Shown here piece after piece: positions 16,862 to 35,410 of a DNA stretch of 64,000 nucleotides (position 1 is its first letter; each line of letters opens with the position of its first letter). The notes beneath the pieces were generated by a model. It was not told where the DNA came from, ran no database searches, and worked only from the letters and a program-made list of their open reading frames with translations. Position numbers and translations under genes: made by a program. This DNA comes from Arthrobacter antibioticus (GTDB lineage Bacteria; Actinomycetota; Actinomycetes; Actinomycetales; Micrococcaceae). The stretch spans positions 275,707-339,706 of the forward strand of contig NZ_JASISQ010000004.1 in assembly GCF_030063205.1 (NCBI RefSeq). Reading direction: 5' to 3'.

Positions 16862-17271
16862 AATCCAATTCCTAGTTGCAGTGCGTGCGATGCCTGAACG
16901 GCTGCGGCGGGACCATACCAAATCTGCGCCATCCGAGCCGCCATGACTACCACGGTGACACCCACCGCTCCCATCACATAATTTGACCAAAAGGTTCGTT
17001 CCATCATGGCCCAGTAGAAACCAGCTACGGGAAGCATGGCGGCCGTGAACATATAGCCCCAAAATTCCCATGCCTCACCAGCCATTGTTTCACCGTTGGC
17101 CAGCCTGACAATTGAACCAATGGTGTAAGCCACAATGAAAAGTTCGACGGCGATCAGGCCCAGCAAGGTGATGTCGTTGGGTTTCTTCTTCAGCACGGCT
17201 GCAACGAAGCACACCATAGTTGAGGCTAATCCGAGAATGCCACCAATAATGAGCCAGGCATCAACAATCAT
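16858..17271 (-). CDS. Small integral membrane protein next to truB
   Basis: A 137-residue protein with about four hydrophobic segments (near 5-28, 36-58, 70-90, 97-118) and an Ala-rich tail. Not recognised. Its start overlaps the truB stop (ATGA), and its stop overlaps the next membrane gene. The two membrane proteins have similar length and topology and may form one complex, which is inference from pairing alone. Confidence 0.8.
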   Translation of the reverse strand: MIVDAWLIIGGILGLASTMVCFVAAVLKKKPNDITLLGLIAVELFIVAYTIGSIVRLANGETMAGEAWEFWGYMFTAAMLPVAGFYWAMMERTFWSNYVMGAVGVTVVVMAARMAQIWYGPAAAVQASHALQLGIGL

Positions 17272-18281
17272 GTGGCGCTCGTTTCCGGCTTGGCAGTTGT
17301 TGGTGTGGGATCAGGCGGGAAGACAAGAACCGGCTTGGCTGATTTTCCTGCATCGGCCAACAATGCCACGAGCGTGCCATCGGGGGCGAATGCCGCTGCT
17401 GGCTCGGAAACTGTGTGCAGGCCTTCAGCGCTGGCAGGGATACGGCGGCCGAAGGAGAGCTCATTGGCTTCAGCTGCGCTGAGTTCACGCACGGGCATCA
17501 AGGCGCGAGCCGCATCGGCGATATCCACAATTTGAAGGTTATCCGCCAATTCTTCAAGGGTGCGGGCGCCGTCAAGGTTGTAGGGTCCCACTGCGCTGCG
17601 GCGCAGGACTGTGAGGTGGCCGCCAACACCGAGACCGGCACCCAGATCGCGGGCTAACGCGCGGATATAAGTTCCTGAGGAACAACGCACTGTGACGTCA
17701 ATGTCAATGTAAGCAATTGCGCAGTCTATCTGGGGATCCAGCTCGGCTATAGAGGCCTGGCCAGCGGCCTCACTAGTTTCATTCACCAAGGGGCCACGTT
17801 CCAGTGTTCCGCGACGAATGGCGTGTACCTCAAAAGCGTGGATAGTTACGGGTCGCGCGGCAAGTACCACGTCCTCCCCGGACCGGACCCGCGCATAGGC
17901 ACGCTCACCGTTGACTTTGATGGCGCTGACACTGCTGGGGACCTGAGAAATGGGACCCCGCAACGCCGCAATGCCAGCCTCAACGGCATCATCCGTAACA
18001 CCGGCGGTGTCCGTGGAGCTCGTAAGCGCCCCCTCGGCATCGTCGGTGAGCGTAGTGGCTCCAAGTCGAATAGTCCCCTCATAGGTCTTGGAAGTCCCCA
18101 CGATGTACGTCAACAGGCGCGTGGCCTTGTTGATGCCCACCACAAGAACTCCTGTCGCCATGGGGTCAAGAGTGCCGGCATGCCCAACTTTTCGGGTCCC
18201 TGCCAGCCTTCGCATCCGGGCAACCACATCGTGGCTAGTCCATCCTTGCGGTTTGTCTACAATTACCAGTCCAGAAAGCAC
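17268..18281 (-). CDS. truB: tRNA pseudouridine(55) synthase
   Basis: TruB makes pseudouridine 55 in the tRNA T-loop. The 337-residue protein has LVIVDKPQGWTSHDVV, the catalytic Asp39 in GHAGTLDPMATGVL, and CSSGTYIRALARDLG. There is a Ser/Thr/Pro-rich C-terminal tail beyond the usual domain. The start is GTG 18281; the GAGGAT upstream is about 13 bases away, which is long, but the protein begins exactly where the family does. It belongs to the infB-rbfA-truB-ribF lineage of genes, here separated from rbfA by the lipoprotein/WXG module. Confidence 0.95.
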   Translation of the reverse strand: MLSGLVIVDKPQGWTSHDVVARMRRLAGTRKVGHAGTLDPMATGVLVVGINKATRLLTYIVGTSKTYEGTIRLGATTLTDDAEGALTSSTDTAGVTDDAVEAGIAALRGPISQVPSSVSAIKVNGERAYARVRSGEDVVLAARPVTIHAFEVHAIRRGTLERGPLVNETSEAAGQASIAELDPQIDCAIAYIDIDVTVRCSSGTYIRALARDLGAGLGVGGHLTVLRRSAVGPYNLDGARTLEELADNLQIVDIADAARALMPVRELSAAEANELSFGRRIPASAEGLHTVSEPAAAFAPDGTLVALLADAGKSAKPVLVFPPDPTPTTAKPETSAT

Positions 18282-18401: not shown

Positions 18402-19178
18402 ATGAACAACCAACCACGTATTAGTTATCATCGCTCCATCGCTGCGCTGAGCGCCGGCGCCGTGCTGGCATTGGCCCTCACCGGCTGCTTCCCAGGCGGC
18501 GGTTCGGCCAAGCCTGCCGAGAACACTGCAGCGTCGCAGGAACAGTCACCGGCGGCGGACCGTGGCAGCGATGATGCAAGCCCCACCGCCAGAAAAAGCG
18601 CAAGCAAGGAGTCGGCTAAGGCACCCTCTGACGATGCTCCGGCAGGCAAAAATGAACTAACAGCTCCGGGCGCCACCTTGAAGTTTGGTGAGGTTGCCTA
18701 CACCCACGGAAACAGTGGCAAGAAGGATTCAGAAGATTATCGGGAAGCTACCTACGAGACCAAGGTCACCAAAATCGTGGCAGGTAGTGAAGCAGATCTG
18801 GCTGATTTCAAGGACGCAGCCAAGTTTGCCGGACAGACCCCCTATTACGTTCACGCGGACGTGGTGCTGACATCACTGTCAAAGCCGGCTGCAGGCCTGA
18901 GCGATCCCCGTATCACCGCCCAGCTGAAGGACGGTTCCGACGCCCAGAAACTCATAGTGTTCGGAAAGATGGCCGACTGTGAGACGACGAGCTTTGAAAC
19001 GCAGGGCGATGGCGACACTTTCAGTTATGTAGTGGGCTCGCACAAGTCAATGTGCGGCGTTTTCTTAGCTCCCACGGGTGATGAGATCACCACGGCAAGC
19101 TACGATGATTCAAACTTCAGCTACGAGAACTACAAAGACAACAAATACCGTGACAATCCCATCGTGTGGAGCAAATAG
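18402..19178 (+). CDS. Secreted lipoprotein, unknown function
   Basis: A 258-residue lipoprotein with a signal peptide ending in lipobox LTGC (lipidated Cys29). A Ser/Ala/Lys-rich, low-complexity region (30-95) leads to a folded domain that looks beta-rich (GATLKFGEVAYTHG onward) and contains two cysteines (ADCET, SMCGV) that could form a disulfide outside the cell. That layout recalls DUF4352-like telokin-type domains, but I do not claim membership. It has its own promoter space and is followed by a hairpin and then the WXG100 gene in the same direction. Confidence 0.82.
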   Translation: MNNQPRISYHRSIAALSAGAVLALALTGCFPGGGSAKPAENTAASQEQSPAADRGSDDASPTARKSASKESAKAPSDDAPAGKNELTAPGATLKFGEVAYTHGNSGKKDSEDYREATYETKVTKIVAGSEADLADFKDAAKFAGQTPYYVHADVVLTSLSKPAAGLSDPRITAQLKDGSDAQKLIVFGKMADCETTSFETQGDGDTFSYVVGSHKSMCGVFLAPTGDEITTASYDDSNFSYENYKDNKYRDNPIVWSK

Positions 19179-19241
19179 TTCACCTCCCCAGCCGGAGCAT
19201 AGCTGTTCGTCCTAACTAGTTGTCGAACCAGTTGTCGGCAA

Positions 19242-19280
19242 AGAGGGGGTGTCAAAGGGATTCTGGCCTTGACACCCTCT
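19242..19280 (+). terminator. Hairpin between lipoprotein and WXG100 gene
   Basis: AGAGGGGGTGTCAA (19242-19255) pairs with TTGACACCCTCT (19269-19280) with a two-base bulge. It lies 64 bases after the lipoprotein stop and 33 before the next start. It could end the first transcript or attenuate read-through. The right arm also contains TTGACA, but no matching -10 follows. Confidence 0.5.
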
Positions 19281-19313
19281 GTACGGTTAGTTCCAACTCA
19301 CACAGGAGGAATA

Positions 19314-20801
19314 GTGCCCGGAACTTTTCAGGGAGCAGACGTTGCACAACTGCGCGACTTTGCCAAAGAACTTGTTGGTGCTTCGAAGCGGCTGAACAGC
19401 ATTGGGCTTTCCCTAAACGGCGCCTTGGGTGCCATCGGTTGGCACGGAGCAGACAGCGACCGCTTCCGCAAAGACTGGAGCGGCTCCCACTTGCGCAGTA
19501 TCAGGAGCGTTGCGGCCGAGCTTGACTTGGTGGCCAAAATTCTGCGCTTGAACGCCGATGAACAGGACAAGGCAAGTGCGGCCACCGGCATGGACTGGGC
19601 CAATGTACCTACGGAGGTAAACGCTGACCAGGAATCCAAGAACTTTTTGAACGACAAACTTTCCGGCATGACCCCGGATGAGGTAGATGCGTATCTCCAA
19701 TCCGAAGAATTTAGGACATGGGTTCGCGAGAGCCAGGTTAACGCAGATGCGGCTAAGTCCATTCTTGACACACTCGCTGACTCCGGTGGCCTTGATAAAC
19801 TAGGTCCCAATAAGCTGTCTAACGGGTATGGCGCATTCCTACAGCAGTACTGGGCGGAGTCCGCCATGCGGGACGCCGGAATTGACCCCAACCATTGGGA
19901 CCCGGCTCAGGGTGTCAGCCACAATCGCGAGGATATCTACAAGGTCTACGCCTTCTATGCCGAGCTTTATAAGAATGATCCGCGCATGGAATGGATTGGC
20001 ATGGCTAATCAAGTGGGGCCTACATTCATTGCAGGATTTGAGGACTTGGCCGTACTTCATACAATGGCGACAGCTGGCCAAGACGCCACCGATTATTTGA
20101 GTCGTATGGATCCAGTGAGATACACCGCACTTAAATCGCTGATGAGCTTGGGCGAATCCGATCTAGCTTTCTACGAGACCACTTTCCTGTCTATGCAGAA
20201 ACAGATTTTTACTGACATAGGGTCGCAGCACTTTGCCTTTCAAAATGGTTCAATAGCAGAAATTGAGCGTATGCGCGCGGCGGGTTTGGTCACCCCGAAC
20301 ATGGAACAGGCATGGCTGAATATTGATTCAGTACCTGCGTATTCGAATCCGCAGGACTATCACAACCTATCGGCCACTGACCAGCAGCTCCTCCACCAAG
20401 CGTCCTACAATATCGCCGACCGGGAGCAGAACTTCGTCATTGCAGACGACTACGACACCATCCGAGACCGGCCCTCTGGAACTGTATTTACCGAAGCTAT
20501 GACAGTACTGGGCAAACCCAGCATCGAGGGTGCAGAATCCTATTACCAGAAGTTCCCTGTGGTTGATCCGTACCTTGATTTTGGCAGGATCCCCCCGCTG
20601 GGAGCCGATGTTCACCATGGCAACATTTCCGTGCGTGAGGACCGCTGGAACTTGATCGACCAGGACACTCTGGGAGCCTACGAGGACTGGTTACATTCGC
20701 AAGCGGACCCCTATGGTGAAATGATGAAGCCTATGCCCGAACGTGTTGAAGAATACCGCATGGTGGATAAGACCCTACGAAATCTTGTGGGTGCACCATG
20801 A
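19314..20801 (+). CDS. WXG100-domain protein with long unknown C-terminus
   Basis: A 495-residue protein whose first ~90 residues form a WXG100/ESX-type helical hairpin: Trp43-His-Gly45 is the turn, flanked by two amphipathic helices. Such domains mark substrates of type VII secretion. The remaining 400 residues are mostly helical to about 300, then a segment from about 360 rich in aromatic and acidic residues; no catalytic motif is recognised. GTG 19314 is chosen because AGGAGG lies just before it; the TTG at 19269 is unsupported. The next lipoprotein overlaps its stop (ATGA). No secretion machinery is in the window. Confidence 0.82.
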   Translation: MPGTFQGADVAQLRDFAKELVGASKRLNSIGLSLNGALGAIGWHGADSDRFRKDWSGSHLRSIRSVAAELDLVAKILRLNADEQDKASAATGMDWANVPTEVNADQESKNFLNDKLSGMTPDEVDAYLQSEEFRTWVRESQVNADAAKSILDTLADSGGLDKLGPNKLSNGYGAFLQQYWAESAMRDAGIDPNHWDPAQGVSHNREDIYKVYAFYAELYKNDPRMEWIGMANQVGPTFIAGFEDLAVLHTMATAGQDATDYLSRMDPVRYTALKSLMSLGESDLAFYETTFLSMQKQIFTDIGSQHFAFQNGSIAEIERMRAAGLVTPNMEQAWLNIDSVPAYSNPQDYHNLSATDQQLLHQASYNIADREQNFVIADDYDTIRDRPSGTVFTEAMTVLGKPSIEGAESYYQKFPVVDPYLDFGRIPPLGADVHHGNISVREDRWNLIDQDTLGAYEDWLHSQADPYGEMMKPMPERVEEYRMVDKTLRNLVGAP

Positions 20802-21460
20802 AACGAACGTTGATTGCAGTTTCGCTTTCAGTTCTTCTGCTAGCGGGCTGCTCCATGATCCCCTCCCCCAATTCCAGCAAGGAGCCCACCACAGTGGTTA
20901 ACGGCAATACGCAGTTCACGCCCGAGGGCATCAAGGACATGAAGAAGACCCAAAAGGCCAGCCTTGACGTCAGTGAACGCCCGGTGTCCATGTCTGCGCT
21001 CGGCTTCCCTGCTGGTTCCGATGGAACACTCATAGCTACCGACCCGGACAAGAAAATTCAGCTCAGCATCAAAACCCCCAATGGCATCGTGGAAATGACC
21101 ACTGACACTATCCGTGTCCGACCAGGTGTACCCCCGGAAATCCTCGATCATGTTGACATCTTCTATAACTTCCCTAACGCCAGCGATGCAAACCCTGAAA
21201 TTGCTCGTGCCGCCCAAGAGCTTGGTTTCCGTTTTCTTGACGACTTCGCACCTATTGGCACGGATTTCAAGGACGGGTCCGGAAAGGAAACGTGGGTGCC
21301 CGGATTAGGCAACAGTACAGGGACTGTGTTTTCAGTCGAGGCAATCGCCAACCATACAACAGGCAGCCTGACCTGGATCTACTCAATTCAGTTGGACGAT
21401 AGGTATTACACGCCGGATGCTGCGGCAAGCATTGCCGCCACCGGTGACTTTCCGCGCTAA
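20798..21460 (+). CDS. Lipoprotein coupled to WXG100 gene
   Basis: A 220-residue lipoprotein with a short signal peptide and lipobox LAGC (Cys18), followed by a Ser/Pro linker and a mixed alpha/beta-looking domain (from about 60). No family recognised. Its ATG overlaps the stop of the WXG100 gene by four bases, so the two proteins are made together. A membrane-anchored partner, chaperone or immunity protein on the outer face are all possible; nothing in the sequence decides. A strong hairpin follows. Confidence 0.82.
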   Translation: MKRTLIAVSLSVLLLAGCSMIPSPNSSKEPTTVVNGNTQFTPEGIKDMKKTQKASLDVSERPVSMSALGFPAGSDGTLIATDPDKKIQLSIKTPNGIVEMTTDTIRVRPGVPPEILDHVDIFYNFPNASDANPEIARAAQELGFRFLDDFAPIGTDFKDGSGKETWVPGLGNSTGTVFSVEAIANHTTGSLTWIYSIQLDDRYYTPDAAASIAATGDFPR

Positions 21461-21519: not shown

Positions 21520-21557
21520 GCGGGAGGTCACCTTTTCTTCAAAAGGTGACCTCCCGC
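21520..21557. terminator. Convergent terminator, lipoprotein gene/rbfA
   Basis: A perfect 17-bp stem (21520-21536 with 21541-21557) closes a CTTC tetraloop, with four A/T pairs at the loop side. It lies between the converging lipoprotein and rbfA genes, 13 bases from the rbfA stop, and can serve both directions. Confidence 0.88.
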
Positions 21558-21570
21558 CGTCGTATCTGGC

Positions 21571-22008
21571 TTACGCCTCTTCGGCGTCTTCCTCGGCCGA
21601 CTTGTACGGGTCAGCCTCGCCGGCAAACTCGGCGTTGGCGGAAAGCTGCGCCAACGCGGCGTCGCGCTCCTTGGCCACACGCAGGAGAGCCTCCAAGTTC
21701 GAAGCATTCTCCGGGATCACATCGGCAATGAACTCAAGTGTCGGCGTCAACCGAACAGTGATGTTCTTACCAACTTCGGCGCGGAGCACGCCCTTGGCCC
21801 GCTCCAAACCGATCTTAGCGTCGGCACTTGCTGTCTCGTCACCCAAGACCGTGTAGTAGATGGTGGCGTGCTGAAGGTCGTTCGTGACACGGGCATCGGT
21901 GACTGTGATGCCTTCAACGCGCGGATCCTTCACCCTTGAGCGAAGGCCTTCGGCCACCACAACCTTGATGCGCTGTGCCAGTTTGGACGCGCGGGCTGAA
22001 TCAGCCAT
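21571..22008 (-). CDS. rbfA: Ribosome-binding factor A
   Basis: RbfA binds the 30S subunit during late maturation of 16S rRNA. The 145-residue protein begins ADSARASKLAQRIKVVVAEGL and contains DPRVEGITVTDARVTNDL and the PTLEFIADV strand, the normal KH-like fold; the tail is acidic. ATG 22008 is preceded by AAGGAG. A terminator with a U-tract separates it from infB, so it probably has its own promoter or depends on read-through. Confidence 0.96.
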   Translation of the reverse strand: MADSARASKLAQRIKVVVAEGLRSRVKDPRVEGITVTDARVTNDLQHATIYYTVLGDETASADAKIGLERAKGVLRAEVGKNITVRLTPTLEFIADVIPENASNLEALLRVAKERDAALAQLSANAEFAGEADPYKSAEEDAEEA

Positions 22009-35096: not shown

Positions 35097-35137
35097 AACT
35101 GGTGATGTTCCATGAGAAGGAAAATGCGGGAGAAGCA

Positions 35138-35410
35138 ATGAGCACTGGCCTTTATGGCAGCGACCCAGAGGAGCTGCGTCAATTCGCTCGGGAGCTTGAA
35201 CAGGCAACGAATATTCTGCTGGCAGTAAAAAGCGAGTTGAGCACACGCATCAGCTCCAAGTTGCGGTGGGAAGGGCCCGACGCCTTCTTTTTCAGGCATG
35301 CATGGCAATCTTCTTATGCTCCGGTGATTGGACAAGCGGCGCAGATGCTCGAGGACACGGCGCATACCCTCTTGCTGCAGGCATCAGAGCAGGAATCTGC
35401 CAGTAGCTAG
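35138..35410 (+). CDS. WXG100-family protein (ESAT-6-like)
   Basis: A 90-residue stand-alone WXG100 protein: two helices joined by the Trp44-Glu-Gly46 turn. It is clearly related to the first 90 residues of the protein at 19314-20801, sharing G-x-D-x3-LR-x-FA-x-EL, the WxG-x-D turn, FR-x2-W and a final A-x-EQ-x2-AS with only one residue of offset. Such proteins are secreted as dimers by type VII systems. ATG 35138 follows GGGAGAAG. No EccC/EssC-type ATPase gene is in the window. Confidence 0.82.
   Translation: MSTGLYGSDPEELRQFARELEQATNILLAVKSELSTRISSKLRWEGPDAFFFRHAWQSSYAPVIGQAAQMLEDTAHTLLLQASEQESASS

Follow-up and report, generated by a model that had tools for sequence, protein, structure and literature searches.

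A putative type VII secretion effector with a DUF2515-like body and its candidate immunity lipoprotein in Arthrobacter antibioticus

The 64,000-nucleotide stretch of Arthrobacter antibioticus contig NZ_JASISQ010000004.1 analysed here (hereafter the window) carries two overlapping genes that probably encode a type VII secretion effector and the lipoprotein that protects its producer. The first gene (19314..20801, + strand, GTG start) is an open reading frame (ORF) for a 495-residue fusion protein, a predicted type VII secretion system (T7SS) effector. It joins an Esx/WXG100-type head, a helical hairpin with a WHG turn (residues 1-93; 19314..19592, +), to an all-helical DUF2515-like body (approximately residues 104-495; 19623..20798, +). 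The second gene (20798..21460, +) encodes lipoprotein 2, a predicted immunity lipoprotein of 220 residues with the lipobox LAGC and its cysteine at position 18. The 3' end of the fusion gene and the start of lipoprotein 2 share an ATGA, which indicates translational coupling. We favour a toxin-immunity pair because the presumed guard is retained after loss of the effector, is duplicated, diverges more than the body and is coupled to its 3' end, as in Firmicute T7SS immunity genes.

The association of body and lipoprotein 2 was evaluated on 62 body loci obtained from a scan of genome contigs. A profile search recovered a lipoprotein 2 relative downstream of 56 of the 59 bodies in unbroken frames, a set including locus L127, in which the body is complete, and excluding the broken frames of L110, L113 and L114. 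Of the three exceptions, L107 runs into a contig end right after the body, L125 carries a Sec-like signal, and the L127 body lies in a very long frame. Each of the three broken loci kept its lipoprotein 2 match. Since 46 of the 47 rows of the lipoprotein 2 profile were drawn from these same body loci, a profile-free lipobox scan provides an independent figure: a lipoprotein-like ORF followed 55 of 58 bodies versus 76 of 604 other genes of the same loci. A 4-nucleotide overlap with the downstream ORF was likewise found for 46 of 58 bodies versus 5 of 604 other genes. The gene caller was crude, and the key counts were redone with profiles. In a survey of 149 genomes of the family, lipoprotein 2 adjoined all nine bodies found, four of these nine genomes also belonging to our genus set. 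An immunity-like gene is thus both adjacent to the body gene and found together with it. Two loci showed unusual arrangements. In Gordonia araii (L111, 2424-6217), the body and a lipoprotein 2-like domain share one ORF followed by two further copies, the single frame reflecting either a sequencing error or a genuine fusion. In Pseudonocardia spinosispora (L127, 2-7858), the body lies in a frame open over at least 2619 codons and shared with a major facilitator superfamily transporter; this body, outside our 71-row alignment, lacks the equivalent of H306, and no match to lipoprotein 2 lies close by.

Within the genus, body loci were detected in 10 of 23 congeneric genomes, nine in a single frame (G000, G019, G001, G008, G012, G013, G016, G017 and G018) and one split (G020), and each of them adjoins a lipoprotein 2 relative. 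Searching the same genomes with the lipoprotein 2 profile yielded 16 full-length or near full-length copies and one remnant, two further matches at about 22 bits having been dropped from the count. Ten copies adjoin a body (the split one included) and six are orphans, all full-length, in G001 (two copies), G003, G013, G017 and G018. The flanks of these six orphans, when searched, yielded no body save a C-terminal scrap in G018. The family survey added G430, with lipoprotein 2 and no body found, and G545, where lipoprotein 2 is preceded by a C-terminal body scrap; one TAA was reported within the G545 match, yet a 215-residue ORF covers it. Conversely, no T7-type body without lipoprotein 2 was seen among the body loci surveyed. 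Counted by hand, about six independent body losses with retention of lipoprotein 2 are opposed to none in the reverse direction (one-sided sign test, 1/64), although some orphans may stem from one shared loss. Tandem copies of lipoprotein 2 occur at L084, L098, L103, L104, L111 and L212, and two matches fall within one frame at L123 and L124. For T7-type bodies, orphan and tandem immunity-like genes are therefore both present, with no unguarded body among the loci.

The genus copies fall into three allotypes located at three sites, with identities of 46-95% within and at most 27% between allotypes (15 sequences, G019 being excluded as near-identical to G000). Each orphan clusters with the paired copies found at its own site in other strains. 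The window body shares 37-39% identity with the bodies of the other two allotypes, so that lipoprotein 2 diverges further than its partner. Twelve pairwise ratios of nonsynonymous to synonymous substitution rates (dN/dS) calculated for lipoprotein 2 ranged from 0.13 to 0.39, and are rough since several dS values exceed 1.4.

These distributions bear on a different explanation, a surface partner system. In it, the body exported by the T7SS would serve the envelope as a housekeeping or nutritional enzyme, and the lipoprotein, instead of inhibiting it, would act as an anchor, receptor, foldase or activator. The tight coupling and the one-frame body and lipoprotein 2-like domain of Gordonia would equally fit a working complex, and the body residues are conserved across the class, Sec-exported forms devoid of lipoprotein included. 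An anchor or activator would however be expected to disappear with its enzyme, whereas full-length lipoprotein 2 outlives the body and T7-type bodies lacking it were not seen; the tandem copies also speak against a partner role. We therefore regard a surface partner system as unlikely, and retain the effector and immunity lipoprotein pair as the preferred interpretation.

The fusion protein was modelled with AlphaFold2 (AF2) at a mean predicted local distance difference test (pLDDT) of 88.3 and a predicted template modelling score (pTM) of 0.76. In this model the head takes the EsxA fold, forming an N-terminal Esx-like helical hairpin with a WXG turn. Foldseek and VIA, run on the whole fusion model, matched the head and nothing else, the fold of the body being searched there within a whole-protein model in which the head dominates the comparison. 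By profile, DUF2515 (PF10720) was matched at E ≤ 0.1 by all 56 aligned members (taken from the 62-locus scan together with the window protein), with a best value of 2.5e-9. The window protein scores 13.5 bits, below the gathering cut-off of 24.3. That cut-off is exceeded by the M. chelonae relative L121 (30.7 bits, model positions 12-275 of 294) and by Streptomyces L125 (27.9 bits, with a best stretch of merely about 20 residues). Positions Y172, W195, Y212, Y215, W227, D244, D301, H306, E371, Q372, T393, R444 and W445 are identical across the 71 aligned body rows, and their conservation suggests that the polar ones could form an active or ligand site.

Sequence searches found no credible PDB relative of the body, and Pfam and NCBIfam scans of the fusion found no LXG domain. 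Ntox33 (PF15533) was considered for the body and discarded (18.6 bits against a cut-off of 28.4, and a match at E ≤ 0.1 in 1 of 56 members). Body residues 326-393 matched another ORF in the Arthrobacter antibioticus genome (E 0.15); this match falls within an ABC-transporter-like gene and was judged to be due to chance. The fusion had no match among phages; three plasmid records matched, one of which, from Arthrobacter sp. ERGS1:01, spans 99% of the fusion. Elsewhere in the window (35102-35410, +) a solitary 102-residue WXG100-like protein shows 34% identity over 84 residues with the fusion head, and has no Pfam match.

Lipoprotein 2 was modelled at a pLDDT of 89.6 and a pTM of 0.81. The model displays weak structural similarity to Mog1/PsbP-like lipoproteins, such as LpqN, and to the immunity protein Tsi3. 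No PDB relative was found by sequence, and members of the lipoprotein 2 alignment share no common Pfam family.

A route of export is suggested by the genome search for EccC/EssC that had been proposed with the original prediction. Elsewhere in the genome, it recovered a 1478-residue FHA/FtsK EssC-like ATPase, whose matches to TIGR03928 (534 bits, cut-off 778) and TIGR03924 (361 bits) both lie below the curated cut-offs. Its neighbours are a 92-residue WXG100-like protein (18.4 bits, cut-off 27.3), a protein kinase and an FHA protein. The T7SS call in this genome is made from the ATPase, the core subunit that was searched for. An ATPase above 530 bits is present in all 19 congeneric genomes having head matches. 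Among the four genomes without head matches, it is missing in G004, G006 and G022 and takes a 467-bit form in G007; the chance that the three ATPase-less genomes all fall among those four is 4/1771, calculated by hand and ignoring relatedness. In other genomes the body gene can lie close to such an ATPase. An EccC-type ATPase is the next gene but one from the body in G077 and lies about 8 kb away in G062, with TIGR03924 scores of 870 and 878 bits, respectively, both over the cut-off. In Kutzneria (L123), the body begins about 0.6 kb after a 1308-residue ATPase with three FtsK matches, EccC-type by architecture only.

The same genome contains other FtsK-type and WXG-headed proteins. A second FtsK-type ATPase of 1431 residues is encoded on contig C11 (L050, 7821-12116), and matches of that strength (about 196-230 bits) are found in nearly all congeneric genomes, those lacking WXG heads included. 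Contig C15 (L061, 8357-11115) carries a second head-body-lipoprotein set, made of a 299-residue protein, a 482-residue WXG-headed protein with weak alpha/beta-hydrolase matches and a 135-residue lipoprotein. At L059 (7417-9002) and L060 (7080-9187), WXG-headed proteins of 289 and 349 residues are each followed by a partner of 211-216 residues; no family match over cut-off was obtained for these partners, which are possibly dedicated chaperones or immunity proteins.

We then considered the relatives of the body across the class. Body matches were found in at least 17 of 393 genomes, these counts being lower bounds as the survey scored at most four candidates per genome. Seventeen of the 18 matches were read, the second match of G114 being left out, and the survey overlaps with the contig scan, the bodies of L159 and L162 being those already found at L067 and L119. 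A Sec-like signal is missing from ten of the 17 loci, and in all ten a lipoprotein-like ORF follows the body. Among these ten, T7-type heads exceeded the Pfam cut-off in L161 (WXG100, 28.7 bits) and L164 (T7SS_signal, 86.4 bits); the Pfam head match was weak in L163 and absent in L166 and L167. The head of Kutzneria L123 belongs to PF22905 (E 6e-47), and small upstream genes are weakly EspC-like at L214 (20.3 bits versus 23.5) and L121 (E 0.0098). The original prediction had proposed to check whether the head stays constant while the C-terminus varies. The outcome was mixed: in the genus one head kind is fused to several different bodies, and across the class it is the body that is conserved and the export head that varies.

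Several observations weigh against a toxin-immunity pair secreted by a T7SS. Seven of the 17 class-survey loci have no downstream lipoprotein (a Sec-like signal is clear in five of them and the N-terminus ambiguous in two), and the Streptomyces L125 and Pseudonocardia L127 bodies also lack one. Most of the invariant residues are kept in the Sec forms, toxicity being therefore not a necessary property of the body, and relatives without a lipoprotein may be non-toxins or may act on something else. The fusion matched no toxin family or catalytic fold in Pfam, NCBIfam and PDB sequence searches, and its body is conserved, in contrast to a fast-switching toxin tip. Part of the constraint on lipoprotein 2 may predate the loss of the body. 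Substrates of mycobacterial ESX systems (T7SSa) carry a YxxxD/E motif after the hairpin; residues 60-100 of the fusion contain no tyrosine, and hence no literal YxxxD/E motif. Finally, a near-full-length EccC-type match was present in 17 of 17 class-survey body genomes but also in 16 of 20 genomes without a body match (the first listed being taken as controls), so that presence of the ATPase at class level is consistent with the proposal without discriminating. In family f11, two Sec-type bodies (L171, 2556-3959; L172, 2588-4027) have a secreted-looking protein of about 470 residues downstream in the lipoprotein's place. The ORFs of 467 and 479 residues that were flagged downstream of L171 and L174 were taken to be something other than lipoprotein 2.

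The original prediction had left a choice between a toxin with its immunity lipoprotein, an envelope adhesin and a secretion-dependent sensor. Conserved pairing, orphans and tandem copies favour the toxin for the fusion and lipoprotein 2, and the other lipoprotein of the locus (lipoprotein 1, see below) plays no part in it. A sensor or adhesin, in which a surface-displayed body would be held by the lipoprotein, asks for nothing beyond an export head and a lipoprotein partner, both of which are present. It appears improbable, as the polar residues identical in 71 rows suggest a site for catalysis or ligand binding, the Pfam and NCBIfam scans matched no domain of the adhesin, repeat or wall-anchor kind, and orphan lipoproteins would be left with no obvious role. 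In the toxin-immunity model, the Esx-like hairpin head would direct the fusion to the EssC-like T7SS that the genome encodes at another locus. The DUF2515-like body would then act outside the cytoplasm, a lipoprotein guard implying a target located there, most likely as an envelope enzyme on neighbouring kin cells that works through the invariant polar set D244, D301, H306, E371, Q372 and R444. Lipoprotein 2, made from the same message as the body, would bind and neutralise it on the outer face of the producer membrane.

A broader reading, which we put forward tentatively and hold with rather less than even confidence, is that DUF2515-like proteins are previously unrecognised all-helical exported envelope-acting enzymes used as antibacterial T7SS weapons by Actinobacteria. 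Their body would have been grafted onto several T7-type heads (the Esx hairpin, PF21725 T7SS_signal, PF22905 and heads whose upstream partner gene is EspC-like) as well as onto Sec signals. A lipoprotein immunity family, giving rise to allotypes and orphan resistance genes, would accompany the T7 versions.

Upstream of the pair lies lipoprotein 1 (18402..19178, +, 258 residues). The three plus-strand genes are flanked by truB (17268-18281, -) and rbfA (21571-22008, -), and are therefore antisense to that cluster. The original prediction of a lipoprotein, a WXG100-headed 495-residue fusion and an ATGA-coupled second lipoprotein between truB and rbfA describes real genes, but its grouping of all three into one module was not supported by comparison with other genomes. 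Lipoprotein 1 occurs in 12 of the 23 congeneric genomes and adjoins truB in all 12, with an intact body at that site in only two of them (G000 and G019); the truB site of G018 holds decayed body pieces only. It is present without any body match in G002, G003 and G005, whereas G012 has the body and lipoprotein 2 pair and no lipoprotein 1 match. Likewise, no match to it came up in the 19-kb stretches read for the pairs located at the other two sites. An insertable unit of three genes, suggested by the fact that they lie side by side on one strand in this genome and in the conspecific G019, is accordingly very improbable. Lipoprotein 1 is an independent resident of the truB-rbfA gap, outside the pair, and the unit consists of two genes.

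The gap itself was measurable in 14 of 21 stretches. Its size is about 350 bp in G007, 3.3 kb with all three genes in G019 and 6 kb in G018; in G016, G020 and G005 it is about 1 kb and lipoprotein 1 is the sole recognised gene. Its contents (L140-L158, L064 and L065) vary by strain, being near-empty, lipoprotein 1 or a secreted-looking protein of 370-418 residues, and an apparent acyl-CoA-dehydrogenase gene was seen by eye in some strains. An inverted repeat with a 17-bp stem (21520..21557, no strand) was read by eye in the interval separating lipoprotein 2 from the convergent rbfA. It was not flagged in a terminator scan, which requires a T run, and is possibly a terminator shared by both genes.

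The T7SS toxin-immunity literature that we found by searching deals mainly with Firmicutes, and DUF2515 is named in no paper of the literature searched. The body and lipoprotein 2 pair recurs in many soil actinobacteria, and close relatives of the window genome often retain lipoprotein 2 after loss of the body. If our interpretation is correct, this is a conserved effector-immunity pair with orphan immunity genes at fixed sites, which would make antibacterial type VII secretion directly testable in the phylum, and it would give a first functional lead for DUF2515, a family of unknown function.

Known Firmicute systems offer points of comparison. In Streptococcus intermedius, excerpts of PMC12419801 and PMC9484751 present TelC as a T7SS toxin cleaving lipid II, with an effector domain reported in the former to be active solely outside the cell. 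The tipC immunity genes are described in the PMC9484751 excerpt as occurring in tandem copies, with products bearing a probable lipoprotein signal. TelC is a Firmicute toxin of a different family from the window body; a sequence search of the PDB with the body profile matched no TelC chain, and the Lipocone fold comparison was dominated by the head. In Staphylococcus aureus, TslA and TilA are described in excerpts of PMC10730906 as a T7SSb phospholipase toxin and its immunity lipoprotein. In Pfam searches, DUF576, the TilA-type lipoprotein family, was unmatched in all members of the lipoprotein 2 alignment, and no lipase domain was matched in the fusion. According to the same excerpts, TslA is a lipase with a reversed domain order, whereas the window fusion places an Esx-like head before an all-helical DUF2515-like body, and TilA is the first gene of its cluster, whereas the lipoprotein 2 gene overlaps the 3' end of the fusion. 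Both pairs nevertheless combine a T7 effector, whose export and action outside the cytoplasm are predicted in our case, with a neighbouring lipoprotein gene, and the copy number of TilA homologues varies across strains as does that of lipoprotein 2 relatives. TilA, orphan esaG and tandem tipC genes, as documented in the excerpts of PMC10730906 and PMC9484751, thus provide the Firmicute T7SS immunity patterns with which lipoprotein 2 and its relatives are compared.

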